NCBI GenBank assembly: GCA_020152595.1
Contig: JAIGNY010001444.1
Location: 253,501-317,500 of the forward strand
DNA from: Chiridota heheva
Lineage: Eukaryota; Echinodermata; Holothuroidea; Apodida; Chiridotidae
Length of the DNA: 64,000 bases
Reading direction: 5' to 3'
Below the pieces are notes generated by a model. That model did no database searches. It worked only from the letters and a program-made list of their open reading frames with translations, and was not told where the DNA came from. Of this stretch, positions 15,396 to 58,350 are shown one piece after another (positions within the stretch are counted from its first letter, which is position 1; every line of letters starts with the position of its first letter). The translations under genes and the position numbers were made by a program.

Positions 15396-15516
15396 TATCC
15401 CCCTCCCCATAAACCTCATCCCATTTCCCCCAGCTGCCCTTCTCTACTATTAGGGTACTTGCTGCCTCCTTCTTATTCCCCTTTATTCATTTATTCATTT
15501 CTTATTTTCATCTTCA

Positions 15517-16880
15517 TTGACACATCAGAACTTGAAACTCCACCTCAATCCTCCAAACACGCCGAGAAATGTCCCAAAAGGCCATGCTCTTCCCTTTAGT
15601 CTTATTTTTCCTCCCATTCCTCCTCTCTCCCTCTCTCACAACTTTTTACCCCGCCCCTCCCCACCATTGCCAAAATTCATCATTGTCTCCTCTCCCCCCC
15701 ACTCCCCTAGTAATCCAGGCCTAAAAAGCCTCTCCTCATTTGCCCTCACCAGGGCCCTGCAGGGTATCATTGGTACCCCCGACCTTGTCAAATGCCTAAA
15801 GTCCAGAGACCACCTGATCAAAAGTTCCACCTCTACCCAATCCAAACTCCTCCTAGCATCACAACCCTTGCTAACACTAATGTCAAAATCACCACCTCCC
15901 CACACCAATACATTAAATCTTCCAGGGGGTAATCAAGTGCCATGATCTTTATGGAAGCTCCCTTGAGGAAATAAAAACTGAACTGAAATCACAAGGCATT
16001 GACGTCTGCCAACTCACCCTCTCCCCCAACAATACCACACTATCCAAACTAACACATACTTCCTCATATTCAACTCCCCCACCCCTCCCACCTCCATTCA
16101 CATTGGTTACCTCAATATCCCTGTCTCCCCAATACATACCCAACCCTCTCAGATGCTACAACTGTCAAAAATTCGGCCACGGTAAATATAAATGCCGCTC
16201 CCAAGCCCGCTGTGCTAATTGTCGCTCCCCCTCTTTGATCGTACAAGCTGTAAAAACGAGCCAAATATTCATTAACTGTTCCAAAAACCACCCTGCCTCC
16301 TCCAGCTCATGCCCCAAGTGGATCAGGAAAAGGAGTTCTTCAAAATAAAAACCCTCCAAAACTTCTCCTTCTTCGAACCCAGAAAGATTCGAGATCTCGA
16401 TTCCAAAACCCCAGTTCCAAAAACCACCCTGCCTCCTCCAGCTCATGCCCCAAGTGGATCAGGAAAAGGAGTTCTCCAAAATAAAAACCCTCCAAAACTT
16501 CTCCTTCTTGAACCCAGAAAGATTCGAGATCTCGATTCCAAAACCCCAAAGCAGCTTAACACCCACACCTATTCTCAAGCTCTCACCCACAACAACCCTA
16601 CCACCACCAACAGCAACAAACCCATCTTCATCAGCACCTGCACTGTATCCAAGGGCATCCAGACAGACACAGTCTGGATTGACCAGTTTTCCCACCAGGA
16701 AAAAGTCACTTTTACCCCTCCCTCATTTATTTCTGCCTCCCCATCTACCTCTTCCACATCCACCAACACTTCAGGCCCCTCACATCAATATGCCACTACT
16801 TTCTCCCATTCTGGAGAAAACCAGTTTAACAACATGCCACTTCCTAAGGACCATAAACTCCAACAGAGCACCTCAATCTA
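15517..16880 (+). pseudogene. ORF1 (Gag-like, CCHC zinc knuckles) of LINE copy B
   Basis: From ATG 15,517 the translation reads a proline/serine-rich N-terminus, then SNPGLKSLSSFALTRALQGI, a segment typical of ORF1 in this family. A frameshift near 15,920 precedes GVIKCHDLYGS-like and SLEEIKTELKSQG coding. The first knuckle CYNCQKFGHGKYKC is at 16,154-16,195. A second (ARCANC...) follows, and a third reads NCSKNHPASSSSCPKW. A 136-bp tandem duplication (16,281-16,547) breaks the frame again. The encoded protein would bind element RNA; this copy cannot make it. The open frames after the duplication are low-complexity Ser/Thr/Pro. Confidence 0.82.
16281..16547. repeat. 136-bp tandem duplication inside ORF1 of LINE copy B
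   Basis: CCAAAAACCACCCTGCCTCC begins one copy at 16,281 and another at 16,417; the two are almost identical except a one-base difference in CTTCTTCGAACCC/CTTCTTGAACCC and minor changes. Since 136 is not a multiple of three it shifts the frame. The high identity implies a recent event. Confidence 0.92.
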
Positions 16881-17403
16881 AGAAATAATTAAAGGCAACC
16901 TTAAGAACATCCAAAGATCTCCCGTCAATTAACACAAACCTTCCCCAATCTTACCTTCCACCCCGCACCACTCAGGTTAAAAACGCCAGCAGAAACTCCT
17001 ATAAAATTCAGCAGAAACCTATCTTCCCAACAACAAGCACCCAAGATCAACTCCTCCAAGCCTTACAACAACGATGGAAACATCCCAGTCCAACTTTCTT
17101 CATCTTTAACCCTCCCCTTCATAGACTACAATCCTATCCAAGACATGGACTTCGGCCAGCCTCCCCGGACCCGGGCCCCTCCCTCCTAAATATTTTTGAT
17201 AGCTGCTGATATCATACAATGGAACTGTCACGGACTCTCTGCCATCTTACAAAAACTTGAAATTCTGATTTCCACTTTCAACTCTAGTATCATCTGCCTT
17301 CAGGAAACCTTTTTATCCTCCACTGACTCAACCCCCATTCCTGGGTACTCGGGGTCACGCTTTATTTTCCAGAATGCCAGAAAGGCTTCTGGTGGCTCTT
17401 CTT

Positions 17404-17968
17404 TGGACTTCCTTCTCAACAAATCTCAAAGCTTCAGCGCATTCGAAACACTGCTGCCAGATTAGTTACTCTCACAAATAAGAAATCTTACATTTAACCC
17501 ATCCTCCACCAACTTCATTGGCTTCCTATATGTGAAAGAATAAACTACAAGCTTCTCACCCTCACATACAAAGCCATCCATGGTCTTGCTCTAAATTATA
17601 TTTCCAACTTACTCACCTTACAATTACCAACTCGCTCACTTAGATCTAACAGTGCTATTCTCCTAAAGCCGCCAAAAATTAACACCAAGACTTATGGTGA
17701 ACGTTCTTTTCAATCTGCAGCCCCCAAACTCTGGAACATTCTCCCAATCTACATCAGAAATGCCCCTACTTTAGATATTTTCAAGAGTGTATTGAAAACA
17801 CACCTTTTTATGAGTTACCCTCATTGGACCTTGTAACTTTATCCTGCTTGTATCTTTTTAAGTATGGTTTTTTGTTCTCTTACTATTTGTATCTTAAGGT
17901 TTTCTTATGTTATATTTGTTTATGTAAAGCGCATTGAGACTGTTTGGTATAATGCACTATATAAAAAT

Positions 17969-18027
<59 letters not shown>

Positions 18028-18028
18028 T
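17404..18028 (+). mobile_element. Nested 5'-truncated CR1/L2-like LINE tail
   Basis: This interrupts the endonuclease of LINE copy B. Translation reads LQRIRNTAARLVTL, a stop, then LHQLHWLPICERINYKLLTL, YKAIHGLA, RSFQSAAPKLWNILP and FKSVLKTHLF: the conserved C-terminal block of CR1/L2/Rex-type ORF2 proteins. The 3' UTR has GCGCATTGAGACTG...GCACTATATAAA, a typical tail, and ends in an (ATT)n run. Nesting gives relative age: copy B inserted first. Confidence 0.85.
17971..18028. repeat. (ATT)n microsatellite tail
   Basis: About 19 ATT trinucleotides directly after the TATATAAAAATGT tail of the nested LINE; such short tandem tails are normal 3' ends of CR1/L2-like elements. Confidence 0.95.
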
Positions 18029-21000
18029 ATGTCAGGATTGATATCCCTTCGAATCTCATTCCTATTCACTTCAACCTCCAAACCTCCTACCGTTTTGTGA
18101 AACTCTCCCTCCCCCTCTCTGACCTTGACAACCTCATCTCATCAAGTCTCCAAACCCTTTATCCTAATGGGTGACTTCAATGCTCACAACCCCCTTTGGG
18201 GCTCCTCCTCCTCCTCAGTCAGAGGTAAACACATTGAAAACTTTCTGAACCACCGCAACTTCTGTTTCCTTAATGATGGCTCTTCCACTTACACACAGGA
18301 ACAGGCACCTTCACCAGCATTAATATCTCCATCTATGACCCCTCCCTCTTTGCAAAGTTCTAGAACTGGAGAGTTCAACCTTCACTCTGTGGAAGTGACC
18401 ATTTTCCCATCCTCATCTCCACCCTCCCCTCCTCTACACATACTTTCCCTACTAACTAGAAATTTCAGCATGCAGACTGGAATCTTTACTCCAGTTTATG
18501 CAACATCTCCATCACCAATGATATCCTTCTCTTCGACAACCCATCACTCTCTTCACCTCAAAGGTTCTGGAAATCGCAGATTTTTCTATCCTCTCTTCCT
18601 ATCCTCTCTTCCTCCTTCACCCTGAAAAACTTTAAATATTGGTTCACCACTTATTGCAAAAGAATAAAGCCGTTAAGAATAAAGCCCTCCTTTTCTTCAA
18701 AACCCACCCATCCCTCCAAAACCTGGATAACTTCCATAACTGCTTAGCCTCCACTTTCACCAAAACCTCCTTCAAAGAATCTTTCCCACTCCTTTCGAAA
18801 CCTGAAAATTGAGGCTGAGAGAAACTTTCTTAACTTCCAGTCTAAGTATAAGGAAAACTACAACCTTCTGTTCACCTACTCAGAACTCTACTCTGCCCTA
18901 AAAAGATCAGGGTCCTCTTCCCAAGGCCCCGTCAGCATTCACTATAATCTCCTATAAAACCTTCCAGGACTTCCCTTGACATCTTACCCAAGATTTATAA
19001 CCACCTGTGGTCCTTCAAAACTTTTCCTAACATTTGCAGAGAGGCCATCATTATCCCCATCCCTAAGCCCAACAAAGACAGATCCATTCCCAATAATTAT
19101 CGCCCCATCGCTCTCACGTCCTGCCTCTGCATGATAATGGAACATATGGTCAATTATAGACTTTGCTGGTACCTTGAGAAGAAGCTCTTCCTCTCCTCAT
19201 CTCACAATGGTTTCAGGAGAAACTGGAATCGCCTGGACCATGTACTCAATTTAGACACTTATGTTCATAAAGCCTTTGTCAGGAACCACCATCTCCATCT
19301 TCTTTGACCTCGAAAAAGCCTTTGACACCACCTGGCTGTATGGTATCCTGAGGGACCTACACTTTGGGGTCTTCTTCCAATCCTCATCCAGAACTATCTC
19401 CATTCTCCCAATTTCAGGGTGCGCATAGGAAACACCTACTCACAAAGGTATACCCAGCACCTGGGTGTACACCAAGGCAGCATTCACTCCCTAACTCTGT
19501 TTATCCTCAAAATCAACAGCATCATTAAAGCTCTCTTCCCTAACATCAAGTGCTCTCTTTATGTCAATGATTTTGCCTTTTTTTCGTCCTCCCCATGCTT
19601 CCAAATCTTCCAAAATAATCTTTAAAAATGCCTTGACAACCTAGCTTACTGGAGTGACACTAACAGCTTCAATTTCTCAAAAGACAAAACTGTTCTTATT
19701 CATTTTAGCAACAGCAACTCTTTCTTCTTTTGCCCCAATCTTTCATCTCAAAGATTCCATCATTCCCAGTAAAGAAAGTTCTCATTTCCTTGAAATCACT
19801 CTCGATTCTAGGCTCTTCTATTTCCTCCACATCAACACTCCCAAAACCAACTGTTACAAAACCCTCAATCTTCTCAAGGTCCTCTCCAACACTAACTGGG
19901 GAGCCAATCGTCTCACCTTGCCCACTGTATATTGCTCCCTTCTTAGATTTAAGCTGGACTACGACAACTTCATCTATGGCTTTGCCCACAAATTTTACTT
20001 GAGGTACATCAAGGTCATCGAAAACACTGCGCTAAGGATCTACCTTGGTGCCATCCAAACCACCCCCATAACCAGTCCTCTCGTAGAGGCCAATGAACTC
20101 CCCTTTGACCTCAGGTGTGCCAGGGCTAGTTTCTCCTTTGCTCTTCACATCCTCACTGACCCACGAAACCCTTGTTTCTATTGCACCCACTCTCCTTCAT
20201 TCACCAACCTCTTCAATCTCAACAAACACATCCCTCCACCATTCGGTATCCGATGCATTCTCATTTCTCCAAAGCCAACATCAATATTTTCTTTATAGCC
20301 AGGTACACTGTCCCTTCCACTCCCACCTGGCTTATCCCTCCTTCCCTCTCCTCCCAAGTTTTTCTTGGCCTCACCTCCTACATGAAAGCTCTTCACAACC
20401 CTGCCTTTTTTTGCTCCAAATACTGCCAACTCAGTAGACACTTCCATGACTACTCCTTTCTCTTCACCAAGAGTTCCACATGAGAAGGCTCCTCTGCAGC
20501 CTCCGCCACCTGTACTGGCCTCACCCTTTCATCAAGATTACCAGATGGAGCCTCCTGCCGAAGCAAAGGCTATCCTCCTAGCTTTAAACTTTGCAGAACT
20601 CTCCTTCTGCCTCTACTTCATCATCAGTTCTCACAGGCGTCCTCAACATGCTCTGGTCTAATCCACTTATCTTACAAATTTTAAAGAAAATTTACGCTCT
20701 CTCTTCTTCAGGGAAGAAAATGATCTTTTTCTGGATTCCCAGCCACATCGGTATCCCTGGGAATGAGAGAGCCGACAGAGCAGCTAACAACGCTCTGTGG
20801 AACCACATTTCACCAATCCTTATTCCGCACTCTGACTTTCGTCTCAACATTTCCAGCTACCTCAGGGAGACCTGGCAAGACTCTTGGAATCTTGAGACCA
20901 GAAACAAACTTCACACTATCAATCCCAAAGTAGGGACCAACCCTCCCTCACACAGTCGCAATCATAGAGAGAACGTCGTTATCACCCCCATACATCTTGA

Positions 21001-21455
21001 TCACTCCTTTCTCACCCAATCCTACCTCCTTTCAGGCTCTTTCAAACCTCTCTGCCTTACTTGCAACACTGATCTTTCAATCAAGCATATCCTCTTAACC
21101 TGTCCCTTATACCTAAACTTCACATCACTCCTTTCCTCCTCCACATCCATCTCTGATCTCTTCAAGAACAATCCCTCCTCCAATATCATCTCCTTCCTCC
21201 GCAATAGCAACTTATTGCACTTGATTTAATCCCTACCCACACTTCCCCCTTTCTACCCCACCATCCTATCCCTCGTTTCCTTTTTAAACTTTTTTTCACC
21301 TTTATTTTTCACCCTATTTTTCTCTCCTTCCTATTTCTTCTCCCTTTCCCATTAATCTCCATCCTAACTCTAGCACCTTAACTTTCTAACACCCTCTTGG
21401 GACATTTGACTGAATGCTGTGGTGCTGTTAAACATCAACAAACCAAACCAAACTT

Positions 21456-34374: not shown

Positions 34375-36730
34375 ATTCAGGTAGTTAATTATAATTACTC
34401 TTGCTAAATAAGGTAAATTGTAATTGTTCTTACTAAATAAATATGGTAATTATAATTAGCCTTACTAAATATAGTAAATTATAATTACTCTTACTAAATA
34501 AATACGGTATTTTATAATTACTCTTACTAAATGAATATGGTAAATTATAATTACCGTACTAAATAAATATGGTAAATTATAATTAGCCTTACTGATTAAA
34601 TATAGTAAATTACAATTACTCTTACTAAATAAATATGGTAAATTATAATTACTCCTACTAAAAATATGGTAAATTATGATTACCCTTACTAAATAAATAT
34701 GGTAAATTATATTTATTCTTACTAACTAAATATGGTAAAATATAATTACTCTTACTAAATAGATATGGTAAATTATGATAAGCCTTACTAAATAAATATA
34801 GTAAATTATAATTAGCCTTACTTAATAAATATAGTAATCTATAATTACTCTTACTAAATAAGTATGGTAAATTTTAATTACTCTTACTAAATAAATTTAC
34901 TAAATAAATATGGTAAATTCTATCCCTTACTAGATAAATATGGTAAATTATAATTACCCTTACCAAATAAATATGGTAAATTATAATTAGCCTCACTAAA
35001 TAAATATGGTAAATTATAATTAGCCTCACTTAATAAATATAGTAATCTATAATTAGCCTTACTAAATAAATATAATAAATTATAATTACTCTTACTAAAT
35101 AAATATGGATTTTATAATTGCTCTTACCTAATAAATATGGTAAATTATAATTACCCGTACTAAATAAATATGGTAAATTATAATTAGCGTTACTGAATAA
35201 ATATAGTAAATTACTCTTACTAAATAAATGTGGTAAATTATAATTACTCCCACTGAAAAATATGGTAAGTTATGATAACCCTTACTAAATAAATATGTTA
35301 AATTATAATTACCCTTACTAAATAAGTATGGTAAATTATATTTACTCTTACTAACTAAATATGGTAAAATATAATTACTCTTACTAAATAAATATGGTAA
35401 ATTATAATAAGCCTTACTAAATAAATATAGTAAATTATAATTACTCTTACTAGATAAATATGGTAAATTATAATTACTCTTACTAAATAAATGTACTAAA
35501 TAAATATGGTAAATTATAATTAGCCTTACTATATAAACAGAGTAAATTATGATTACTCTTACTAAATAAACATAGTAGATTATAATTACTCTTACTAAAT
35601 AAATATGGTAAATTATAATTAGCCTTACTAAATAAATATAGTAAATTATAATTAGATTTACTAAATAAATATGGTAAATTATAATTATTCTTACTAAATA
35701 AATATGGTAAATTATAATTACTCTTACTAAATAAATAAGGTAAATTTTAATTACCCTCACTAAATAAATATGGTAAATTATAATAACCCTTACTAAATAA
35801 ATATATTAAATTATAATTACTCTTACTAAATAAATATGGTAAATTATAAATACTCTTACTAACTAAATATGGTAAATTATAATTAGCCCTACTAAATAAA
35901 TATAATGATTATAATTAGCCTTACTAAATGAATATGGTAAATTATAATAAGTCTTACTAAAAATTATGGTAAATTATAATTACTCTTATTAAATGAATAA
36001 GGTAAATTCTAATTACCCTTACTAAATAAATATGGTAAATTATAATTACCCTTACTAAATAAATATGGAACATTATAATAATCCTTACTAAATAAATATG
36101 GTAAATTATAATGACTCTTACTAAACAAATATGGTAAATTATAGTTACCCTTACTAAAAAATATGGTAAATTATAATTACCCCCACTAAAAAATATGGTA
36201 AATTATAATTACCCTTACTAAATAAATATGTTAGATTATAATTACCCGTACTAAATAAATATGGTAAATTATAATTACTCTTACTAACTAAATACGGTAA
36301 AATATAATTACCCTTACTAAATAAATATGGTAAATTAGAATTACTCTTATTAAGTAAATATGGTAAATCATAATTAGCCTTACTAAGTATGGTAAATTAT
36401 AATTACCCTTACTAAATGAATATGGTGAATTATAGATACTCTTGCTAAATAAATGTAGTTAATTATAATTACCCTTACTAAATAAATATGGTAAATTATA
36501 GTTACAATTACTAAATAAATATGGTAAATTTTAATTACCCTTACTAAGTAAATATGGTAAAATATAATTACCGTTGCTAAATAAATATGGTAAATTATAA
36601 TTACCCTTACTAAATAAATATGGTAAATTATGTTCATTCTTACTAAATAAATATGGTAAATTATGGTTACCCTTACTAAAACATATGGTAAATTATAATT
36701 ACCCTCACTAAATAAATATAATAACTTACT
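34375..36730. repeat. 33-bp minisatellite, about 71 copies
   Basis: The unit AAATAAATATGGTAAATTAT plus AATTACCCTTACT (33 bp, 11 codons) varies mainly at ATTACCC/ATTACTC/ATTAGCC and ATGGTA/ATAGTA. Units with GCC or CTC tend to cluster, which suggests local block duplication. Minus-strand frames reading VIIIYHIYLVR repeats follow from the 11-codon period; stops and frame jumps occur and nothing else supports a protein. Confidence 0.94.
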
Positions 36731-37851: not shown

Positions 37852-38721
37852 TTTTTGTAAATATACTGTTTAGCACTGAAAATCCTAATCTCATGGTCTG
37901 ATAACCCTTTAAAGTTCACTTTTTTTTTTTTTATATTTTGAATCATGATGTACCAGTGCAATTTTGAATTTCGTTTCTCTCGTGATTATTTTTACTTCTC
38001 TTTTTCAAAGATGATTTTTAGAGCACGCATTTTATTTTTTACACCTAATTTTGGCGGTTTCCCCATTAGGTCCTTAGGCCCTAATGAGCTATCAGCCACT
38101 GCATGCCCCTTCCCCCTCCCCCCTCATGTCTGAAATTTAAAAAATATTATTATTTTGTCCAAAATAGCTATTTTTGACCTTTTTTAATGATGGGAGGGGG
38201 GGGGGAGATAGAATGTATTATTGTATAATTATAAGCTGCTATTTTAGATCATTCCATATATTGATTGAGGTGCAAATTTGGTACTTAAAAAACCTTTGTA
38301 TTGCACACATTCAGAGTCTTTTGGGACCCCCACTGGGGCTTTGTCCCTGAACCCCACAATGGGCCCTAAAGCGGGCCCTTTGACCCCATGCTGAAAAGGT
38401 TTGTGCCCCCAAAAATCGAACCTGTGATGGCACCACTATTGTATGTAGGGAGATACTGTAGAGAGAAATTGTTTGGCAAACACGAGCCACATGATACAAT
38501 ATTTGTTTGATCACATGATTGCTCTGTCTCCCCATAATGGCATCTGCTCCATGTGTTTCAAACTGTTCAATGCACAGCCTTTGATCAGATTTCAATTAAA
38601 ATGAAAAGATATCGTTCGTCAGCATGGTAAAGATCTTTAAAGACCAGAACAATCGGTGTTCTTGTGTCTCAGCGATTGCTATTAAATTTTTCATTTGCTG
38701 ATGTACACCATGAAATAAAAT
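37852..38721. other. Intergenic, with degenerate dispersed repeat
   Basis: CCATTAGGTCCTTAGGCCC...ATCAGCCACTGCATGCCCC (about 38,060-38,105), a G-run at 38,199-38,208, and GGACCCCCACTGGGGC (~38,324) resemble parts of the CAGTGGC-type dispersed repeats. No coding region supported. Confidence 0.4.
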
Positions 38722-39899
38722 CTTCATATGCCAGGCCATCTTCATATGCCAGGCCATCTTCATATGCCAGGCCATCTTCATATGCCAGGCCATCTTCATA
38801 TGCCAGGCCATCTTCATATGCCAGGCCATCTTCATATGCCAGGCCATCTTCATATGCCAGGCCATCTTCATATGCCAGGCCATCTCCATATGCCAGGCCA
38901 TCTTCATATGCCAGGCCATCTTCATATGCCAGGCCATCTTCATATGCCAGGTCATCTTCATATGCCAGGCCATCTTCATATGCCAGGCCATCTTCATATG
39001 CCAGGCCATCTTCATATGCCAGGCCATCTCCATATGCCAGGCCATCTGCCAGGCCATCTTCATATGCCAGGCCATCTTCATTTGCCAGGCTGTTATCTTC
39101 ATATGCTAGGCTATTATCTTCATATAGGCCTATATGCCAGGCCATCTTTATATGCCAGATTATAATCTTCATATGGCAGGCCATCTTCATATGCCAGGTC
39201 AATATCTTTATATGCCAGGTCATTATCTATATATGCCAGGCTATTATCTTCATATGCAAGATTATTATCTTCATATGGCAGGCCATCTTCATATGCCAGG
39301 TTATTATCTTCATATGCCAGGCTATTATCTTCATACGCCAGGTTATTATCTTCATATGCCAGGCCATCTTCATATGCCAGGCCATCTTCATATGCCGGGC
39401 TGTTATCTTCATATGCTAGGCTATTACCTTCATATGCCAGTATATCTTTCTATGCCAGGCTATTATCTTCATATGCCAGGTTATTATCTTCATATGCCTG
39501 GTTATTATCTTCATATGCCAGGCTATTATCTTCATATGCCAGGCTATTATCTTCATATGCCAGGCTATTATCTTCATATGCCAGGCCATTTTCATATGCC
39601 AGGCTATTATCTTCATATGTTAGGCCATCATTATATGCCAGGTTATTATCTTCATATGTCAGGCTATTATCTTCATATAGGCCTATATTCCAGGCCATCC
39701 TCATATGCCAGGTTATTATCTTCATATGCCAGGCCATCTTCATATGCCAGGCCATCTTCATATGCCAGGCCATCTTCATATGCCAGGCCATCATTATATG
39801 CCAGGTTACTTTCTTCATCTAGGCCTATATGCCAGGCCATCTTCATATGCCAGGCCATCTTCCTTTGCCAGGTTATTATCTTCATATGCCAGGTTATTA
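38722..39899. repeat. 18-bp then 21-bp minisatellite, left block
   Basis: From 38,722 to about 39,080 the unit is CTTCATATGCCAGGCCAT (18 bp, about 20 near-identical copies). It then alternates with a 21-bp form, CTTCATATGCCAGGTTATTA plus T or GGCTATTAT variants. Both periods are multiples of three, so long frames (SYARPS, MPGHLH; minus MKMAWH) appear on both strands. The array continues at 42,011 after an inserted element. Confidence 0.95.
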
Positions 39900-40689
39900 T
39901 TGGTTCGCATGCATAGCATTATGGGAACCTACATAATGGCGATTACCGCCATCCGGCCGTCCACAGATTTGTCCTGAGATTTCCTCAGAAATGTTTAAGT
40001 TTTTTGAGAACTCCTCAGAAAATGTTTAAGTTTCTTCAGAGTTCCTCAGAAAAAGTTAAAGCTTCTTCAGATATCCTTATGGAAGGTTAGAATTTCCTTA
40101 TGGAAGGTTAAAATTTCCTTATAAAATGTTAAAGTATTTTCAGAGATACTTATGATGACTAGTTTCCTCAAAAAGTCTACAATACATTTGATATTTTCTT
40201 AGATAACTGTAAAATGATATAATTTTCCAATTTACTTCAGAAATCTACAAGTCTCTCTTGTAGTACTTGAGATTTAAAATCCTTAAAATTCTTCGAAATA
40301 TTTGGGCACCAACAGTTGTATCAGGCATGATTTTTTAAACTCCACCTTTATTATTGTGCTCATTTACATAAAGTTGCTACAGTATTATGACCTGACCAGA
40401 CTTTTTTATTTATTATGCTTACTCAGGGAGTGTGACAGGATGTGATTGCATATAAACATAGGGAGGTATGCCATGTGGGACATGGATGGGGGCCATGAAG
40501 GACATATGATTTAATATTTACCATGTTGTATATATACCAAGGGCTATATCAGGCATAATTATTTGACTCCACCTTTTTTTCTTATTCAACAACTCATTTG
40601 CATATAAGTTATTATATGAACTGACACTTTAATACATAGTATGCTCAATCAGGGACTGTGGTAGCTAGGATGAGACTTCTTATGGAGCT

Positions 40690-41930
40690 TATGGGATGTC
40701 ATGTCAGACATAGGGTGGGATGTCAGTGGGACATGGGGTGGGATGCCATGTGGGACATGGGGTGGGATGCCATGTGGGACATGGGGTGGGATGCCATGTG
40801 GAACAGGGTGGAATGCCATGTAGGATATGTGGGGTGGAATGCCATGCAGGACATAGGGTGGATTGCCATGGGATGGAATGTCATGTGGGACATGGGATGA
40901 TATGGGATGTCATGTGGGACATGGCATCCCACCCCATTTCAACAAGTCATTTGCATATAAGTGATTATATGAACTGACACTTTCATACATAGTATGCTCA
41001 ATCAGGGACTGTGATAGCTAGGATGAGACTTTATGGAGCCTATGGGATATCATGTGGGACATGGGGTGGGATGCCATGTGGAACAGGGTAGAAAGCCATG
41101 TGGGACATGGTGGGATGCCACAAGTAACACAGTGTGACATAGGTTGGGAAGCCATGTGTGACATAAGGTAGGATGCCATGTGTGACATAAGGTAGGATGC
41201 CATGTGTGACATAGGGTAGGAGGCTATGTGGGACATAGGGTAGGAGGCCATGGGGATGTGGGACATGGGATGTGATGCCATGTGGGACATAAAGTAGGAT
41301 GTCATTGGGACATTAGGAGGGATACTATGTGGAACATATGGTGGGATGCTATGTGGGACATCAGGTGGGAAGCCACTGATGCGGGACACAGGGAGGGATG
41401 CCATGTGGGACATAGGGAGGGATGTAATGTGGTACATATGGTTGGATTAATGTGGGACATACATGTAGGATGGGATCCATGTGGGTCATAATGTGGGATG
41501 CCATGTTGGACATATGGTGGAATGCCATGTGGGACATATGGTGAAATGCCATGTGAGACACTGTATGGTGGTTTGCCATGTGGGAGATAAGGTGGAATGC
41601 CATGTGGGACAAGGCATGGGATGTCATGTGGGACATGAGGTGGGATATCATTTGGTACATGGGATGTGGGACATAGGGTGGAATGCCATGTGGGTCATAG
41701 GATGGGATGCCCTGTGGGACATATGATGGAATGCCATGTGGGACATGGGATGTCATGTGGGACATGGGGTGGGATTCCATGTGAAAGATATGGTGGAATG
41801 CCATGTGGGACATGGGATGGGATGCCATGTGGGATGCCATTTGGGATGCCATTTGGGATGCCATGTGGGACCTAGGGTGAGATGCCATGTGGTACATGGG
41901 ATGCCATATGGGACTTAGTGTGAGATGCCA
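40690..41930. repeat. ~24-bp minisatellite inside HINE-like copy 1
   Basis: The unit GATGCCATGTGGGACATGGG plus GTGG (24 bp) is well ordered at first, then degenerate, with GACATAGGGTAGGA and GACATATGGTGGAAT variants. Interrupted at about 40,930-41,045 by arm-like sequence (TCATTTGCATATAAGT...). Open frames on both strands (CHVGHGVG, MSHMASHP) follow from the 8-codon period. Confidence 0.9.
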
Positions 41931-41991
41931 TTTTTATAATTGGCCGGGTCATATAATATGGGTGTCAATTTGCATGGGCATGCGAACCATG

Positions 41992-42010
41992 ACGGTATTT
42001 ACCGTTCTAG
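41992..42010 (+). other. 3' hairpin and CTAG terminus of HINE-like copy 1
   Basis: ACGGTATTTACCGT can pair six bases around a TT loop, one base before CTAG. Copy 2 keeps the same structure as ACGGTATTTACTGT then CTGG (50,506-50,509), with a G-T wobble in the stem. Helitron 3' ends classically have a hairpin and CTRR; here the spacer is shorter than the usual 5-12 nt. Confidence 0.65.
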
Positions 42011-42462
42011 TCTTCATATGCCAGGCCATCATTATATGCCAGGTTATTATCTTCATATGCCAGGTTATTATATTTATATGCCAGGTTATTATCTTCATAT
42101 GCCAGGTTATTATCTTCATATGCCAGGTTATTATCTTCATATGCCAGGCCATCTTCATAGTATCTTCATATGCCAGGTTATTATCTTCATATGCCAGACC
42201 ATCTGCATAGTATCTTCATATGCCAGGTTATTATCTTCATATGCCAGGCCATCTTCTAGTATCTTCAAATGCCAGGCCATCTTCATAGTATCTTCATATG
42301 CCAGTCCATCTTCATATGCTAAGTTATTATCTTCATATGTCAGGCTATTATCTTCATATGTCAGTATATCTTCATATGCCAGGTTATCTTCATATGCCAG
42401 AATATCTTTGTTTGCCAGGCCATCTTCATATATGACAGGCTGTCTTCATATGCCAGGCAGTG
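42011..42462. repeat. 18/21-bp minisatellite, right block
   Basis: Continuation of the CTTCATATGCCAGG array, in 18-, 21- and irregular 30-bp forms (CATCTTCATAGTATCTTCAT). Its first unit begins TCTTCATATGCC, exactly where the left block stopped at 39,899. Confidence 0.93.
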
Positions 42463-42806
42463 TACCAAGCCAAGCCAAGCTTATTTAGTGTGGGGGGTAG
42501 GGAATTCAGGAGCCATTATCCCTGGCAAGGGGACCGTTTTCCATGAATCCTGTTCACGCAAAAGGATATGCAGTATCTTCTTTAAACATTACAAAAAATA
42601 TATAAACCAGATTTATAACACCCAAATTATGTGAGGTGAAGTAACTTCCATCTACAAGAAAAAGTAGAATAAACTTCTATATTTAATTCAAAACTCCTGT
42701 TTGTATAAAATGCAAATTAGTGTGTGTTTGCTCTTGTACAATCACAATGCAGAAAATAAACTTAGCTTGCATCAATTTTTGTTATGTTTTTTATCCCCTG
42801 TCACAG
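42463..42806. other. Intergenic or intronic; possible LINE tail
   Basis: CCAAGCCAAGCCAAGCTTATTTAG at 42,467-42,490 looks like the reversed tail of a retroelement with a short tandem end, followed by ~60 bp of GC-balanced sequence. No protein is recognisable. The right edge is a pyrimidine-rich acceptor-like tract. Confidence 0.3.
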
Positions 42807-42838
42807 TTCTTGGACGGAGAGCAGGTGGTTCTGTCAAG
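42807..42838 (+). CDS. Candidate 32-bp micro-exon (unidentified)
   Basis: A good acceptor (TGTTTTTTATCCCCTGTCACAG) and a good donor (AAG|GTGATT) bracket 32 bp. Entered in phase 1 it reads (V)LGRRAGGSVK and exits in phase 0, which fits both the candidate exon at 24,343 (exit phase 1) and that at 43,485 (entry phase 0). Read from its first base it gives FLDGEQVVLS. It is very short, so chance is a serious alternative. Confidence 0.25.
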
Positions 42839-43484
42839 GTGATTGCCAATATTGGTTAATAACTGCAATCCACTGAGCGCAAAAGATATTGTGATCATTT
42901 CCAATGACTGCTTATTAGGAAATAACTGTCAAACCTTCAGCTGTTTTTTGTTTCATGCATCACATATTTTGCATTTATTGAAATGTCCTTAAACTTATGA
43001 GTCAGTCATAACTCAAACACTGTTCTCAGGGCTATTGATTAAGTTGGGAATTTTTCATAATCGCAGAAGTGTCATGATATGTGTCTTTACATATCTACAT
43101 GTATCTGTGTTAGGGATGCACCCAAGTCGGAAATGTCAACACACACAAAATGTATTACATGAAATATTACAAAACACAGATTCCTACACATGAGATGGAA
43201 AATGAACTAAATAATCCTGTTATGCTACAATACATCATTTTAATTTATGTATTTGAACATTAATGGTTTTTAAAATGTGCAATTCTATTATAGTACAATT
43301 CCTTGCTTGTTATTAAACGTATCATTTTTAGTACACTAAAGGTCTTTTGCATTCCATGAGTAATGGTCTTTAAATTTTCACATATGATAAATTGCCTTCC
43401 AGCGTTCTTCTTAAAATAGGTTAACCCTTTGCTTGAAATAGTTCAAATATACAGTATTTGTGTTTTGTATTTAACTGTCGTCAG
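42839..43484. other. Possible intron, no feature seen
   Basis: AT-rich, no repeat or coding evidence. It would be the intron between the candidate micro-exon and the candidate exon at 43,485. Confidence 0.25.
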
Positions 43485-43549
43485 GAGGAGATGAAAGTAG
43501 AAAGAACTGCTTTAAATGCCATTTTGTCTACTCCTTCATTCAGCTGCAA
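43485..43549 (+). CDS. Candidate 65-bp coding exon (unidentified)
   Basis: The acceptor (TTTGTATTTAACTGTCGTCAG) and donor (CAA|GTATGA) are both reasonable. In phase 0 the segment reads EEMKVERTALNAILSTPSFS followed by C, with a codon left open (exit phase 2). Composition is charged and helix-prone, like the candidate at 24,343. I do not recognise the family, and no following exon was found in the window. Confidence 0.35.
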
Positions 43550-46500
43550 GTATGAAAACAATAAAAGCACGACACCTTCTGAATCAATTAGTTTAGTTGG
43601 CATTAGTACCTTAAACCAAAATGCATGACATTTTACTAAACAGCTTTAAGGCACATAATAGACATTGAAGTATTAATCATTTTCAGAAAGGATTTAGGTT
43701 TGAAGTTTCAATGTCAAGGCTGCATAAATATTATGGCGAGTGATTTTTAAATGCAGTATGGCAATTGTGATTGCTGTCCCCACAATAGTGGTGCCGTATA
43801 GTGTTACATGTCTGATATACACATCCTCATTGGATATTGATCATAACATCTGTATGCTGCCTGGTTTACAGTGCAATCACTGGCAGGTGTAAGAGATGTT
43901 AGTTGGAAGGGCAAAACATGATGTGGGCAGGGGAAGTAAACATCTTTTTTATTATATATATAATTCAATACAAAAAACAATCATTAGCAAATATTTCAGG
44001 GCAATTAGTGAACACTATAGACCCTATGGCGAGCCGCCCATGTTAGAAATAAAATCATTTCTTGCAAAACGATCAAATGTATTTCTCTTGTGATTTTAGG
44101 TTTTAGTGTTCTCAGGGAAACCTTCAATGATCAGAAAAAATAATCAGGTTGATTAAACTTTGTGTCAATTCTCTATTACTTTTTGTCAGATGCACTTACA
44201 TTTGAGAAAAGTCTAGGATTGATAGAAACATTGATTAGGGGCTGTTTTCAAATGCCCTACCATACTCAAGCTAATAGGTTTACTGTTTTACTGGAGTCAC
44301 AAATTTTAAAGAACTTTAAGATCAAATTTCATCTTCTTGACTTGACTTGAATCTTTTGAAATTAGCTAACCAGTAGACATAGAGATATGGACAGAAAGTT
44401 GATAGTACATGAAGTGTCAATGACCTTTCTCAACATCCTGTTCATTAGAAGCTCATAATCCAATGTACCGTATTTGACATATTAAGTGGCCCTGCTCTTA
44501 TAAGCGCTCACCCAACATTTGTTGACTGATAACATAATTTATTTGATTAATTAGAAGAGTTTAGATCAGTTTTGTTACATTATTTGCTTAGTTTGCCCGA
44601 TACTCATGATGTTTTGGTGGGGCTAGTATAGAACCAGTTCACACAATACATGCAGTTCCAATTGCACACTGTACATGGCCTGGAGCATGGCTGCTTATTA
44701 TGAAGAAACTTTGGGCCTAAAAAGTGCTGCAATTCTATTTTCGTGAGCAAAATGTTGAATACAATATTCTATTTGATCTCTTCTCGTTCTTCGATCTCTT
44801 TCAAAAAGCAAAAAACAACTGAAAAGCAAGAACAAATATAATCACAAAAGAAATAACCAAAGCAACCTTCCCATCTGCCCACTTGTCTTTACTCTATTTC
44901 CTTCATTAATGCACCTTGAATTTCATTATGTGTCATTATGATTTCAGGTACTTTTGCCACATTTGACCTGTTGACAAACTAGTTTATGCTTTGTCACGTC
45001 AACAGAAGTTGGACAAATATATTTTTAAGTTGTCATCACATTAAAGTATTTTGAAAGTTTCTTCTTTATTTTTTTTTCATTTTTGTGCTTTTAATTTAAT
45101 CATTGCCATGCATGAACTTTAAAAACTTGTGATAGTGAGACAAATTAAGAAACAGTTTACTTTTTTTTTCTGAATTTCATAAATATTTCTCTCTTTCTGC
45201 CCTGTGATTGACCAATATCTCATCTTCTAATATGCCTATATGTGTTTGAGCAAGTTAGAGTACAATTCTTTATTCAGTATATCATCACAGAGCACTATCT
45301 TTTGGAGGGGCCTTCTTTCATTATCTCCAATGATCAGATGTGAATGACCGTTCATGTCAAAATTACTTAAATTAGTTTGTATGAGGAGATGACGATAGCT
45401 CTCTCTCACTCAGCAAGGTTTAAGCATAAGTGATTTGTCTGACTAGCACAAAAATCACTTGAGATTGCAACAAAAAAAAATTGCCTAGGAAGTGGCATTT
45501 AGTGGAAGGTAATTGTTAGACATCCTACTTGGGGCATGGTGATGTATTAATGTAATATGATTGTCAATTTATAGGATGTTCATATGGTTGCATACTGCAC
45601 TTGCATAGTTTAAAAGATTTTCAATTTTAGAGTGAATTGAATAGTTATGATTTCCATCTTCTTGAAGCTTTAATGACATAACAAGACTTGAGTGTCCAAT
45701 AATTAGACTCCCAAAAAAGTGTGGGTGTCAGTGATTTTTACTTTTATATACTTTAAACAAATTCTGATTCTCATAAATTCTTATTTTATACTTTCCCTAT
45801 AACAGGTCCAATGTGAAGGCACTTTTCTGTTTAAAAGAAATCATTTATTTTCAAAATTCATTTCCGAAATGAGACAAATGTTTGACAGGCCATAATGAGT
45901 GTGACATTTGGAAGGAGCATCTGATTTGGAAATACTATATGATGAATGGATTTAAAGTTTAACAATTTAGAAATAATAATTAATGTAAGAGTCATTTTCA
46001 TTATGATGATTTGCTCCATGCAGAGTATTTTGATAGTCAGAAATAATACAAGTTATTTTCAAATTATAAGTCAGCAATTCTTAAATTGATGTTCGAGTGA
46101 GCCAACTTAAGACTAGATAAAAAGAAATACTTGATGATATGCCCCTTGCATTTTCGGATATCTAACACTACCCCAGTGTAACTAAGCACTTTGACCAACT
46201 TAATATTTTTACATTAAGGTAAAGTTCTTACTTGCATTTATAATATTTTGAAGGTTAACATATACAGGTATCCATGTCAGAACACTTCTAGATAGAAGCT
46301 AGGTCATATTTACAAATACTTTCTACCTTCCTTTCACCTATTTAATATCACCGCAGATTTCTACAGTTGGTCAAATATCATCAAGATGGATATGGCCCTT
46401 GTTGGTGAAGAGGGGATGTAGCATTTTTACTGTTTGTCGTTTGTCAGTCTAATCGTCCACCTCTATTGTCTATTATCTATCTGACCTCATGCATTGTTCA

Positions 46501-47087
46501 GCTACTGGGAACAAAATACTTCTTCCCTTGGAAAGGAGTTTTGACTATATTTGTGAAAGGAAATTTATGTAATAAAGTAGGCTCTTGCCTCAAAAAATTT
46601 ATAACAAATGCATTCCTGACATGAATAGCAATTAAGATATTTCTTCTGGCATGAAAAAAGTCAACAATAGAGCCTAATAGAGGGTGGAAGGTACGTTATT
46701 AGCGAAGTGGGGATTTGTTTAATTTGCTATACCTGGTATTTACTAGCTGTGGACCATGTTGGGATTAATTTCTGCATACTCCCATGCCAAGCTGACATTT
46801 AGCTAGACCACTGAGCTATTGTACATAAGGTGTTTTACATATCACATGTACTCTAGCATCACTAGTGAAAAGTTTCATGAAATGTTTTTATTTTATATAG
46901 ATATATCTACAACATCATCTATGTTAACAAAATGAGAGAGTTCATAGTACCCATAGATGAAACAGAGCTCTTGAACATACATGTGAGTTTGAAATCTTAT
47001 TGCAAGAAGTATTTCACTTTGGTTTACTCCTTGAGAACATAAATGTCTCTACTCACAGTTATTTGGAGTAACATTCAGTGTTTGCAT
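43550..47087. other. Long AT-rich stretch without recognised features
   Basis: No tandem arrays, transposon proteins, terminal repeats or convincing exons were noticed over ~3.5 kb. It is the longest quiet stretch of the window, compatible with a large intron or intergenic DNA. Confidence 0.45.
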
Positions 47088-47665
47088 GATAGAAGAAGCC
47101 AAAGCTATCCCTCTAGCCTTAACCAACCACTTTTCCATCTTCCCTGACTCTAGATTTTAGTCTCCACCTTTATAAACGTTCTAAATTGAAGCAATGCCCT
47201 TTCTCACCTTTGTCTTGCAAAACTTTATCCTCTCTCCCAGTGGTGTGGCCGGACCACCCCTCCACTTTTCTAAAATATATAATACTTCAGATATTTCTAA
47301 AATGAAGAGAAAGAATTTTTTGGAGACATGGAGAAATGGGATCATGTGGTTCAATTACATGACGGCCATTCATAACAAATGCATTGTCCTTTGAATCAAG
47401 TGCAATATTTTATATTATTGCTTAAAGTTTGCGTAAGTAATGCCATGTAAACAGTACATGATAATGTTAACCCTTCTCTTTAAATGCACTTGCCATGATT
47501 ATTACTTAAACATGTGCAAATTTGACCCCCTTCATTTGTTACAACCCCCTTCCCACCCCCACACTTATTTTACCCTGGCAATGTTACTGTTTTCTCCACT
47601 ATCCAACAAAAGCATTATTTACTTCTGGATCTCCAATCATGCGGGCATTCCATGTAAGCACAATG
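47088..47665 (+). pseudogene. RNase H fragments of an I-like LINE, split by an insertion
   Basis: EEAKAIPLAL followed by HFSIFPDSR (47,090-47,155) matches the central RNase H motifs of copies A and B (EAKAIILALNF, FAIFSD). IIYFWISNHAGIP at about 47,612-47,655 matches the downstream WIPSHIGIPG motif. Between them lies unrelated sequence with a CAGTGGTGTGGCCGG word (~47,239), probably a later insertion. Only ~40 residues are left; badly decayed. Confidence 0.5.
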
Positions 47666-47679
47666 TAAACACTCTTCCT

Positions 47680-47935
47680 GGCAGCTGGCTGTCATCAGCA
47701 TAGAAATGGCACTGGGCCCCATGTTTCTTGGCAATGTCGGCAACATGTCGAAAACAAAATTATACCTAAGACAGACCCTTATGGAACACCGAAAGTAGCC
47801 TCCCCTTTGGATACATCCATCTAAGATTAAATCCAAGCGAAAGCATCTCCAGTAATAGAAAAACGTTGCTGCAATCCAAGGAATAATATTTCATGATCTA
47901 CATATCGAATGCTGCACTTATGCCATATCCTTCAG
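47680..47935 (-). pseudogene. CR1-like reverse transcriptase fragment, minus strand
   Basis: On the minus strand, pieces in shifted frames read VDHEILFLGLQQRFSITGDA, then FGVP, a stop, GSVLG (usually GVPQGSVLG) and QCHFYADDSQL or its out-of-frame equivalent near 47,690-47,720. These are RT blocks around the catalytic YADD box. At least two frame breaks and one stop. It lies end to end with the plus-strand RNase H fragment of a different LINE. Confidence 0.5.
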
Positions 47936-48599
47936 ACTGATCCACCCTCCTCACTCACTCTAAAGGTCTCTCTACTTGTTTTGTTAAAAATACATATAAA
48001 TACACACCTGCTCCCTTGATCTTGCCTTTTATATACATATTAAAGAAGTGCTTTTTTGGTTCGTATGCGAAGCATAATGCGAACCTATGTAATGGCGATT
48101 CCGGCCGGACGGCCGTCCACAGTTTTTCCAGAGTTTTCCTCAGAAATGTTAAAGTTTTTTGAGAATTCCTTAGAAGTTGTTAAAGTTTCTTCAGAGTTCC
48201 ACAGAAAAAGTTAAATTTTCTTCAGATATTTTTTATGAAAGCTTCGAATTTCCTTGTAAAATGTACAAGTTTTACAGGGACACTTCAGACAGATTAAAGA
48301 CAAATTTCTCTAAAAAGTCTTAAAAACATTTGATATTTTTTAAGAAGATAACTGTATAATGATATAATTTTCCAATATTCTTCAGAGATCCTCAAGCGTC
48401 TCTTTCGTAGTACTGAAGATTTAAAATTCTTAAAATTCTTCAAAATATTTGGGCACCAACTGTTGTATCAGGCATGATTATTAAACTCCACCTTTATTAT
48501 TGCGGTCATTTGCATAAAGTTGCTACAGTATATGAACTGACCGACCAAACTTTTTTATTCAGTATGCTCAGACAGGGAGTGTGACAGGATGTGACTGCA

Positions 48600-48990
48600 T
48601 ATAGACATAGCGAGGGATGCCATGTGGGACATGGATGGGGGCCATGTGGGACATGGATGGGGGCCATGTGGGACATGGATGGGGGCCATGTGGGACATGG
48701 ATGGGGGCCATGTGGGACATGGATGGGGGCCATGTGGGACATGGATGGGGGGCCATGCGGGACATTATACACCAAGGGCTATATCAGGCATAATTATTTG
48801 ACTCTGCCTTTTTTCTCCCAAAGCATGGGATGGGATGTCATGTGGAACATGGGGTGGGATGTCATGTGGGACATGGGGTCAGATGTAATTTGGCACATGG
48901 GATGGGATCCATGTGGGTCATTGGGTGGGATGCCATGTGGGTCATAGGATGAGATGCCATTGGGACATATGGTGGAATGCCATTTGGGAC
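48600..48990. repeat. 22/24-bp minisatellite of HINE-like copy 2, left part
   Basis: Six nearly identical 22-bp units (GGCCATGTGGGACATGGATG plus GG) at 48,620-48,762, then diverged 24-bp-like units to 48,990. In copy 1 the regular unit is 24 bp with GGGTGGGAT, so the two copies amplified different variants. Confidence 0.9.
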
Positions 48991-50249
48991 AAGTTGTTGT
49001 TGTTCAAACTTTATTTCAATCTTTTCATAATATGTTTAATAAATTCAATTAATATATACAAGCATTTAAATAATTAGAAACTAAACAAATAAACCTAAAT
49101 AGTACAGATTGTAAGTTACATTGAAAAGAAAGAGGAAAACCTTCAGAAGACTACTAGAAGCTTGTGATTAAAGATTCCCCATGTATAACAAGGGACATTA
49201 ACTTTGAACATATATAGTAAGATAGAATTTAAACAAAACGAAAGAAAAAGGGAAAGTTACATAACACACACTAGTGACAATACCCACCTTCAAAATACAC
49301 TTGGCTAACAATACAGATTATTAACAATATAGAAATGGTCTAAGTGGGATGATGGGAAGAATTTGAAATTGATCTGAGGAAATACTTCTTAAGTTTGGAT
49401 TTGAAGCAAGTAATGCTGGGGCAGCTTTTAGCAGACGCTCGTAATGAATCCAAATTTGTACGCCTCGGTATTTTAAGTGGTTCTGACTTTTAGTGAAGCG
49501 TAACAATGGGGGTCTAAGTTGTGTGGCATGTCTTGTATCATAGTTGTGAATTAAAGAGTTACTTATGAAGAAGTTAGCAAAAGTAGGCGGCAATAAGTTA
49601 TTGTGAAACTGATACATGAAACGGCATTTTGAAAATGAATAATGTCAAAAAAGGGAAGAATGTTGCTATCTTTAAATAAGGGGCAGGTGTGAGCGTACCT
49701 TGGAGAGTTTGTTAGAAACCTGATAACTCTTTTTTGTAAAATACATAATTTATGAAACTTAGTTTTATAATTATTACCCCATATTATACAGCAATACATG
49801 AGATAAGGTATGATAAGCACATAATATAATCTATATAGAATATGAGCAGGTAAAATATCTTTTAATCTACTGATGATACCAACACTCTTTGCTACTTTAT
49901 TAGTAATTAAATCAATATGAGAGTTCCAAGACAAGCATCTATCGATAGTTACACCAAGAAATGTTGTATTGTTAGAAAAGGAGACTGGCATTCCATTTAT
50001 AGAAATGCGTAAGTTTGAGGTGTCTGCTCGCCATTGTTTGGGCCGAAATAAAATAAGAGTGGATTTTTTTTAATTCAGATGTAGCTTATTTGTTTTAAGC
50101 CATTCTACAGCTTTAGGCATTTCAGTATTAACAGTTTCAATTATATTTTTGACATTAGCATGGGTGCAAATAATGTTGCCATCATCTGCATACAAAGTAA
50201 AATCTAGTTTAGAAGTACATCGAGATAAATCATTTACATAAATGATAGG
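48991..50249 (-). mobile_element. 5'-truncated non-LTR retrotransposon inserted in HINE-like copy 2
   Basis: Minus-strand orientation: the 5' truncation point is near 50,249 in the RT, and the 3' end near 48,991 is a short (CAA)n tail (TTGTTGTTG on the plus strand). GGGAC is found at both junctions and may be a short target duplication. The encoded RT fragment is nearly intact, so the insertion is fairly young. It splits the GCCATGTGGGACAT array. Confidence 0.8.
49321..50249 (-). pseudogene. Reverse transcriptase C-terminal half (CR1/jockey-type LINE)
   Basis: One minus-strand frame runs from about 50,249 to 49,563 with a single stop (50,070). It begins IIYVNDLSRCTSKLDF then LYADDGNII (YADD at 50,181-50,192), so the catalytic box is kept. 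After the stop come FLGVTIDRCLSWNSHI, LYRLYYVLIIPYLMYCCIIW and LQKRVIRFLTNS, then HTCPLFKDSNILPFFDII. A one-base shift near 49,610 leads into YDTRHATQLRPP...RYRG-like C-terminus ending at 49,321. The fingers/palm start and endonuclease are missing. The apparent ATG at 50,396 lies in the flanking minisatellite. Confidence 0.82.
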
Positions 50250-50425
50250 GACGGGATGGGATGTCATGTGGGACAAGGGGTTAGATGCCATGTGGGAGAT
50301 ACGGTGGAATGCCATGTGGGACAAGGGATGGAATGGCATGTTATGTGGAACATGGGGTGGGATGCCATGTGGGACATGGGATGCCATGTGGGACATGGGA
50401 TGCCATGTGGGACTTAGTGTGAGAT
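50250..50425. repeat. ~24-bp minisatellite of HINE-like copy 2, right part
   Basis: GGGATGTCATGTGGGACAAG and GATGCCATGTGGGACATGGG units continue the array interrupted by the LINE. Confidence 0.88.
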
Positions 50426-50509
50426 GCCATTTCTATAATTGGCCGGGTCATATGATATGGGTGTCAATTTGCATGGGCATGCGAACCATGACGGTATTTA
50501 CTGTTCTGG

Positions 50510-57705: not shown

Positions 57706-58350
57706 AGGTGTGCAATCCCATTCGTTCTTTTTGACAATCGAATGCTCCAACCCTGCCTTTGGCTAAATAGGACACTGTAGATCTTACTCTGTTGTTCTAC
57801 TAGTCTTAAATTGTGTAATCTAGGTGTGCAATCCCATTCGTTCTACTAGACAGTCTAATGCTCCAACTGCACCCTTGCCTAAATTGGCCACTGTACTGTA
57901 TATCTTACTCTGTTGTTCTACTAGTCTTAAGGTTTGTAATCTAGGTGTGCAATCCCATTCATTCTACTAGACAGTCTAATGCTCCAACTGTACCCTTGCC
58001 TAAATTGGCCACTGTAGATCTTAGTCTGTTGTTCTACTAGTCTTAAGGTGTGTAATCTAGGTGTGCAATCCCATTCATTCTACTAGACAGTATAATGCTT
58101 TAACCCTGCCCTTGCCTAAATTGGCCACTAGATCTTACTCTGTTGTTCTACTAGTGTGAAGGTGTGTACTCTAGGTGTGCAATCCCATTCATTCTATTAG
58201 ACAGTCTAATGCTCCATCCCAGTCCTTGCTTAAATTGGCGACCATAGATATTACTCTGTTGTTCTATGAGTCTAATGCTCTAACATTGCTCTTGCCTAAT
58301 TTATTTGAAATTGGCCCAGTGTAGATCTTACTATATTGTTCTAGTAGTCT
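57706..58350. repeat. ~117-bp tandem repeat, about 5.5 units
   Basis: GGTGTGCAATCCCATTCGTT recurs at about 57,706, 57,822, 57,943, 58,060 and 58,177 (periods 116-121), with TCTAATGCTCCAAC, CTTGCCTAAATTGGCCACTG and ACTCTGTTGTTCTACTAGTC in each unit. The last unit is partial. Non-coding. Confidence 0.92.

Follow-up and report, generated by a model that had tools for sequence, protein, structure and literature searches.

A minisatellite-bearing element of Helitron2/HINE architecture, probably a rolling-circle transposon, in the genome of the holothurian Chiridota heheva

The stretch of Chiridota heheva DNA considered here (contig JAIGNY010001444.1 of assembly GCA_020152595.1, positions 253,501 to 317,500; hereafter the window, 64 kb in length) is part of a 1.10-Gb eukaryotic assembly of 3,744 contigs and contains, 6 kb apart, two sequences of similar construction, each consisting of a left arm, a central minisatellite, and a right arm. 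The locus therefore raises the question of whether these sequences—copy 1 and copy 2 in Table 1—are copies of a transposable element and, if so, of which class. A preliminary description, made from the letters alone, had likened them to the Helitron-derived nonautonomous elements known as HINEs and DINE-1, and to the bivalve pearl elements, which are noncoding with central repeats. Having now compared the two sequences with further copies, with empty insertion sites, and with published families, we conclude that the element is very probably a nonautonomous rolling-circle transposon, to be placed on the Helitron2/Helentron side of the Helitrons and similar to HINE/DINE-1.

Copies, termini and hairpins

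The left arms of the two copies could be aligned over approximately 600 bp, with 505 of 574 ungapped columns identical and 16 gaps, and the gapless alignment of the right arms had 88 identities in 92 bp; the sequences flanking the two insertions are unrelated. The common arms and minisatellite, together with the first and last bases that the preliminary description had assigned to each copy, were confirmed. The left arm holds a 31-bp unit repeated about three times. That description had not recognized that the minisatellite of copy 2 is interrupted by a minus-strand fragment, which we call LINE-like (from long interspersed nuclear element) upon reading its open reading frames (ORFs; 49,563–50,069 and 50,070–50,432, minus strand), one of which was scanned against Pfam with no family assigned. 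A 7-base TGGGACA flanks the region of that fragment, at 48,985 and 50,269, but this pair need not be a duplication and may belong to the minisatellite. Within copy 1 (40,305–40,450, 40,536–40,660, and 40,968–41,017), the tail of the left arm recurs with about 70% and 75% identity, and there is also a 94-bp repeat, 96% identical, with a spacing of 353 bp.

When the genome was searched with the left arm, 3,731 first-look candidates were obtained, of which 40 were scored, with 42 matches; the right arm gave 1,076 candidates, of which 40 were again scored, with 40 matches at 99–100% identity. The copy number is accordingly at least some dozens, most of the candidates being unscored. The 30 loci that we fetched were the best matches to copy 1, and hence a biased sample; together with copy 2 they provided 31 left ends, whereas the right ends numbered 23, from 21 full copies plus the two in the window (one of the 20 longer stretches used, L063, yielded no usable right end). 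The left termini were TTGG in 29 instances, TTAG in one, and TCGG in one; the right termini were CTAG in 20, CTGG in one, CAAG in one, and CCAT in one. The base immediately 3' of the element was T in all 23, and the second base was T in 17. The boundaries first read in the two window copies are thus shared by the genome copies compared. The elements are between 1,307 and 3,482 bp long, and in all 23 copies the minisatellite motif is on the plus strand, never on the opposite one.

Measured against the consensus of the 23 copies, divergence amounts to 418 of 12,756 sites in the left arms and to 85 of 2,112 in the right ends. Copy 1 is typical in its left arm (21 of 538) and differs at none of 92 positions in its right, while copy 2 differs at 62 of 554 positions (11.2%) on the left, where it is an outlier, and at four of 92 on the right. 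Because only the left arm of copy 2 stands out among the 23, we treat that arm as belonging to a putative diverged subfamily. Replacement of one end, considered as a cause of the low left-arm identity between the window copies, was rejected, the 23 copies diverging alike on the left and on the right. At another locus (L070, approximately 1,060–2,863), a 3'-truncated left arm is followed directly by the 5' end of a complete copy, the junction reading GACCAGACTTT^TCGG; this arrangement could be either a tandem rolling-circle product or an insertion at a TTT^T site within an older truncated copy. Exact matches to the right-end 18-mer in viral contigs (one) and in contigs of bacterial genomes (eight) were taken as chance, their rate being that expected by a rough estimate; the viral match alone was inspected.

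As to the ends themselves, a 12-bp inverted repeat—the asymmetric terminal inverted repeat (ATIR), or subterminal inverted repeat (subTIR)—is separated from the 5' terminus by 1 bp and from the 3' terminus by 21 bp. The exact inversion reported for copy 1 stands (12 of 12); among the 21 full copies the match was 12/12 in ten, 11/12 in nine, 10/12 in one, and 3/12 in one (L056, which has an indel), and in copy 2 it was 11/12 by reading, with a longest exact stretch of 7. For comparison, exact inverted matches of at least 11 bases occurred in one of 3,000 random pairs of 30- and 60-base pieces.

Two hairpins accompany this repeat. At the left end, in a feature absent from the preliminary description, the subTIR also pairs with an inverted repeat just downstream, forming a 5' hairpin with a 9-bp stem in the 35-base consensus; over 31 left ends, 262 of the 279 cells were Watson–Crick pairs and 9 were G–T, as against 36–65 Watson–Crick pairs when the arms were slid. 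At the right end, 117 of 138 cells over 23 ends were Watson–Crick and 2 were G–T (4–47 Watson–Crick when slid), and CTAG begins one base after that hairpin. The 5' hairpin of copy 1 folds as DNA at -7 kcal/mol. Of 200 shuffles each, 4 folded as well as the left end of copy 1, none as well as that of copy 2, and 3 as well as the right end of copy 1; the fold of the right end of copy 2 was no better than that of shuffles (33 of 200 as good). By itself the 3' hairpin ACGGTA-TT-TACCGT is weak evidence, since stems of at least 6 were found in 594 of 20,000 random 25-mers of the window, and a window scan for a hairpin plus CTRR plus T with an 11-base inverted copy at most 5 kb upstream gave five matches, one of which was copy 1, while copy 2 was missed. 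The recurrence of the hairpin at the same place in the genome copies is stronger evidence than the hairpin alone.

Insertion sites and competing explanations

Copy 1 lies within a tandem array of approximately 21-bp units, and its flanks, when joined, recreate that array: the 15+15 junction was found six times exactly and the 8+8 junction 13 times. From six boundary models tried for this copy, matches came with TTGG...CTAG and the equivalent TGG...CTAGT alone. Since the joined flanks restore the array, nothing was lost upon insertion and nothing was duplicated beyond, possibly, a single T.

The left flanks of the 31 copies had T at position -3 in 29, T at -2 in 30, and at -1 T in 22, A in 6, G in 3, and C in none. 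Consequently, TTD (D being any base except C) stood directly left of the element in 28 of 31 copies, as opposed to 10.8% of 39,269 background positions (P ~3e-24), and TTD^T was present in 20 of the 23 copies with both flanks, the exceptions being GTA^TT (L060), GTT^TT (L059), and TAG^TT (L034). At L060 the empty paralogues have TTA where the filled site has GTA; the L034 copy is preceded by CTAG.

We searched the genome for 18 of the 21 joined flanks, in two batches (10 and 8) with 40 matches scored in each. Eight of the 18 junctions were crossed by paralogous sites (L052, L060, L065, and L067 in the first batch; L034, L055, L057, and L059 in the second); none of the remaining ten was crossed among the matches scored, which result says nothing on absence. 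The genome span equaled the query span in 31 of the 40 rows of batch 1 and in 18 of the 40 of batch 2, where all 22 unequal rows were those of L034 or L059, while the spans of L055 (15 of 15 rows) and L057 (one of one) were equal. Eleven empty sites for four flanks, all picked from equal-length rows of batch 1, were then aligned letter by letter: they were identical at 72–75 of 80 positions, without a gap at the junction in any of the 11, though a single gap at the far end is common to three of them. A separate local search for empty sites gave eight junction-crossing matches (seven at 72–80% identity and one, at 93%, within the locus of the copy itself), which matches we did not use. The empty targets read TTT^TT, TTT^TT, TTA^TT, and TTT^TA, and that of copy 1 TTA^TC; with the empty targets themselves T-rich, the T-richness to the left of the element belongs to the host, and TTD^T represents a preference in the choice of target. 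At the sites aligned, insertion occurred without target duplication.

These data bear on the explanations that might compete with a rolling-circle origin. The element might be a miniature inverted-repeat transposable element (MITE) with near-terminal inverted repeats, moved by cut-and-paste through a DDE transposase that duplicates 1 bp (T) or 2 bp (TT): the inverted repeats are close to both ends, the element begins with T and is followed by T in every right end compared, and DINE-1 was itself formerly classed as a MITE (Yang and Barbash, 2008; PMC2374699). Yet the repeats are placed asymmetrically, 1 bp inside the 5' end versus 21 bp inside the 3' end, and a conserved hairpin lies beyond the 3' repeat; the conserved 3' CTAG has no mirror at the 5' end; and a TT duplication fails at copy 1, whose target has no TT at the cut. 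We accordingly regard a MITE as improbable.

The chance is slimmer still that we are dealing with a derivative of a canonical Helitron (Helitron1), with TC...CTRR ends and an A^T target. Although the 3' end fits CTRR in the 20 CTAG and the single CTGG copies, and copy 1 was inserted precisely between an A and a T, the 5' end is TT rather than TC in all but the one TCGG copy, and the left neighbor is T far more often than A, A^T not being constant. The hairpin, in turn, is one base from CTRR instead of about 11—two of these departures from textbook Helitrons, the start and the spacer, having been correctly pointed out in the preliminary description—and the ATIR and the 5' hairpin, present here, are absent from Helitron1 as characterized in the consulted part of Bao and Jurka (2013; PMC3627910). 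That the two loci would be chance-similar minisatellites or a segmental duplication, with no transposon involved, as their richness in minisatellite and their proximity might suggest, is scarcely credible: copies by the dozen, dispersed among unrelated flanks, end at the same edges, and the precise empty sites refute this reading.

Relatives and a possible mobilizing partner

The features that the available text of Bao and Jurka (2013; PMC3627910) gives for Helitron2 are an ATIR of 8–15 bp, located 0–2 bp from the 5' end and 20–30 bp from the 3' end, upstream of the hairpin. The present element shares the size and placing of the ATIR, the 5' hairpin formed by it, the 5' T, the T-rich target, and the lack of duplication; the ATIR matches at 11 or more of its 12 positions in 19 of 21 full copies, and hairpins stand at both ends. 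The element thus has the structure by which Helitron2/HINE is defined, whereas it departs from Helitron1 with respect to both the 5' TC and the insertion between A and T. It differs from the Helitron2 description in the target, which in Chlamydomonas is TTTT^T/C as opposed to TTD^T, and in its 3' CTAG, which terminus is not among the features described in that text.

With HINE and DINE-1, as presented in the portions consulted of Thomas et al. (2014; PMC4067079) and Yang and Barbash (2008; PMC2374699), the element has in common subTIRs (12–15 bp in those families), a 3' stem-loop, and central tandem repeats, and is likewise noncoding, inserted in T-rich targets, and free of duplication; DINE-1 also has, as here, an inverted repeat next to the 5' subTIR. 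These likenesses support the HINE/DINE-1 kinship first proposed. In mite HINEs, by contrast, the 3' subTIR is 38–60 bp and the palindrome 8–35 bp from the 3' end (Thomas et al., 2014), the corresponding distances here being 21 and 5 bp. No GTCY-type microsatellite was recognized in the left arm. Cg_HINE of Crassostrea gigas (PMC7492417), which we compared by its partly consulted description, likewise has satellite-like repeats, in a fixed orientation, between a left and a right module, and shares a subTIR of 11–12 bp with a complementary inverted repeat 1–12 bp away, a 3' palindrome, and a T-rich target, while its right module measures 60 bp against the ~92 bp conserved here. Finally, proto-Helentron-Pi of Phytophthora infestans (PMC4067079) shares the 5' TT, the 3' CTAG, and the absence of duplication, but is a 14-kb coding element that inserts between A and T and has no subTIRs among the features named for it in the text consulted. 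A CTAG one base after the hairpin is unusual for Helitron2, DINE-1, or HINE, while TT...CTAG is on record for proto-Helentron-Pi. In the open-access literature we recognized no published description of this sequence, although a text search cannot match sequence.

With regard to a mobilizing partner, the profile PF14214 (Helitron_like_N) gave 11 matches above the cut-off in the genome, and a protein probe from one of these gave 19 matches, several in the same loci. Of the five motif-2 matches printed, one was RIEFQQRGSPHAH, two were the near-variants RIEFEQRESLHAH and RIEFEQRRSPHAH, one was broken by stops (HGSPHIH), and one was spurious. One PF14214 match has FYRIEFQQRGSPHAH, which fits the published Helentron signature with S before PHxH; in the part consulted of Thomas et al. 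(2014; PMC4067079) that S, along with F-Y-R just upstream, is diagnostic of Helentrons. One Rep locus has, in addition, a PIF1-like helicase, as well as an RPA OB-fold match below the cut-off; four downstream ORFs tested there contained no endonuclease domain. The genome has a few Helentron-type Rep genes, most of them broken.

We looked for the arms of the element in 58 kb, in 15 pieces, that comprised 3.2–3.4 kb (approximately) at each of the 11 Rep loci, 7 kb of downstream flank at two, and, around a third locus, 6.5 plus 1.3 kb; the expected element ends mostly lie beyond these pieces. Three further observations concern the Rep loci. In L045, ~1.4 kb upstream of the Rep match and on the same strand, a 22-base piece (78–99) resembles the left end of the element (TTGGTTCG...TAGCATTA; expect value E 0.33) without the hairpin. 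In L047, a reading frame upstream of the Rep match has a short in-frame tandem repeat (LPNVT...). In L048, ACCGTTCTAG was discarded as belonging to a local tandem repeat.

Several results weigh against the placement that we favor. The Rep matches are few, and ten of the 11 have internal stops. The autonomous Rep-helicase element with the same termini that the preliminary description had envisaged was found only insofar as those Rep-domain matches exist: none has these ends in this partial search of the 11 loci and some of their flanks, and the best arm matches, to the inner left arm in L045, were weak (E 0.002 over 28 bases, and 6e-4 over 32 bases with the arm of a different copy; a control copy gave E 0). 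The authors of Cg_HINE, in the part of their article consulted, likewise found no linked autonomous partner (PMC7492417). DINE-1 is stated to lack a CTRR end in the consulted text of Yang and Barbash (2008; PMC2374699), whereas CTAG is present here. The three compensatory-looking cells of the 3' hairpin were not counted as covariation, two being CpG transitions (L051 and L053) and the third coming with an indel (L057). As for target duplication, which according to the preliminary description would refute the Helitron link, none appeared at the empty sites aligned, but a 1-bp duplication of T cannot be told from a terminal T. Moreover, nine rows of batch 1 differed in span by 1–3 bases, and the paralogous sites of L034 were one base shorter than the joined flank in 12 of 13 instances and one base longer in the other, while those of L059 were one base longer in nine of 11. 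Since L034 and L059 also break the TTD^T rule, we propose that at these two loci a base may have been added or removed at the junction, or the flanks may have mutated.

The features of the two copies are collected in Table 1.

Table 1. Coordinates within the window of the two element copies and their parts, with the basis of each assignment
Feature	Position	Strand	Basis or context
Copy 1, complete, 2,111 bp	39900..42010	+	Between A and T of ~21-bp tandem array
5' ATIR/subTIR, copy 1, TGGTTCGCATGC	39901..39912	+	12/12 inverted match to 41,978–41,989
5' hairpin, copy 1 (subTIR with downstream inverted repeat, imperfect here)	39902..39929	+	Fold and 31 left ends
Central G-rich minisatellite, copy 1, unit ~22–24 bp, GCCATGTGGGACAT...	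40470..41930 (edges approximate)	+	TRF
3' ATIR/subTIR, copy 1	41978..41989	-	21 bp from 3' end
3' hairpin ACGGTA-TT-TACCGT, copy 1	41992..42005	+	Pairing across 23 right ends
3' terminus CTAG, copy 1, host T next	42007..42010	+	Right-end comparison, 23 ends
Copy 2, 2,454 bp including nested LINE-like fragment	48056..50509	+	Alignment to copy 1
5' ATIR, copy 2, TGGTTCGTATGC, 1 mismatch	48057..48068	+	Sequence
LINE-like fragment nested in minisatellite of copy 2	48992..50247 (edges approximate)	-	Reverse-transcriptase-like ORFs
3' ATIR, copy 2	50477..50488	-	Sequence
3' hairpin (one G–T) and CTGG terminus, copy 2	50491..50509	+	Sequence and right-arm alignment

Elsewhere in the window, a decayed LINE-like stretch (15,454–21,229, plus strand) has a match to the endonuclease family PF14529 and a sub-threshold RNase H match, and is apparently interrupted at about 17,466–18,100, where part of a different LINE and a (TAT)n run intervene. 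Many apparently unrelated minisatellite arrays are located in the window, at 1–1,845, 3,793–4,641, 34,387–36,719, 38,720–39,900, and 57,706–58,273, with units of 27, 28, 33, ~18–21, and 116 bp. Pfam scanning of eight window ORFs matched one ORF to two endonuclease families that overlap, one of these below threshold, and another ORF to RNase H, also below threshold; the other ORFs, in overlapping lists of 45, 48, and 57, were looked through by eye without a Pfam scan. Scans of the 64 kb for Rfam families and tRNAs gave no matches. Searches with the profiles PF00379 and PF14830, intended to place the host phylum, were likewise without a match, but as none of the 14 controls responded either, they do not indicate absence.

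Proposed transposition and its bearing on satellite DNA

From what is proposed for the family we infer the strand transfer, the Rep partner, and the order of events as follows. A Helentron-type element would provide, in trans, the Rep-helicase to nick the ends and then peel off and copy one strand. The 5' ATIR would first fold with its own downstream repeat; when replication reached the right end, the two ATIRs could pair with each other, the stop being marked by the terminal hairpin together with CTAG, after which the single strand would be joined to a TTD^T target, no target bases being duplicated. The minisatellite in the middle would be passive cargo, whose array may grow and shrink. In the Helitron2 proposal, as given in the part consulted of Bao and Jurka (2013; PMC3627910), ATIR pairing opens the 5' hairpin and signals that replication has reached its end, for which sequence of events the present element has every part needed; the duplication-free insertion, furthermore, fits single-strand transfer. 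For a Helitron of Fusarium, a circle with joined ends has been reported (PMC5148889). A more specific history is conceivable, though we hold it to be rather doubtful: the family, in which a DINE-1/Helitron2 architecture is joined to the TT...CTAG ends known from proto-Helentrons, might be the nonautonomous offspring of an element at the proto-Helentron stage, with a Rep that still reads CTAG and a target set by the three host bases to the left of the cut.

The family is cleanly bounded, the empty sites fixing both ends to within one T, and its TTD^T target is sharper than the TT or T-rich preference in the published descriptions compared. The understanding of the Helitron class is unchanged by an element that is ordinary in kind and perhaps new in detail; what this family does provide is a further case of a probable rolling-circle element dispersing a minisatellite, which case bears on the spread of satellite DNA.

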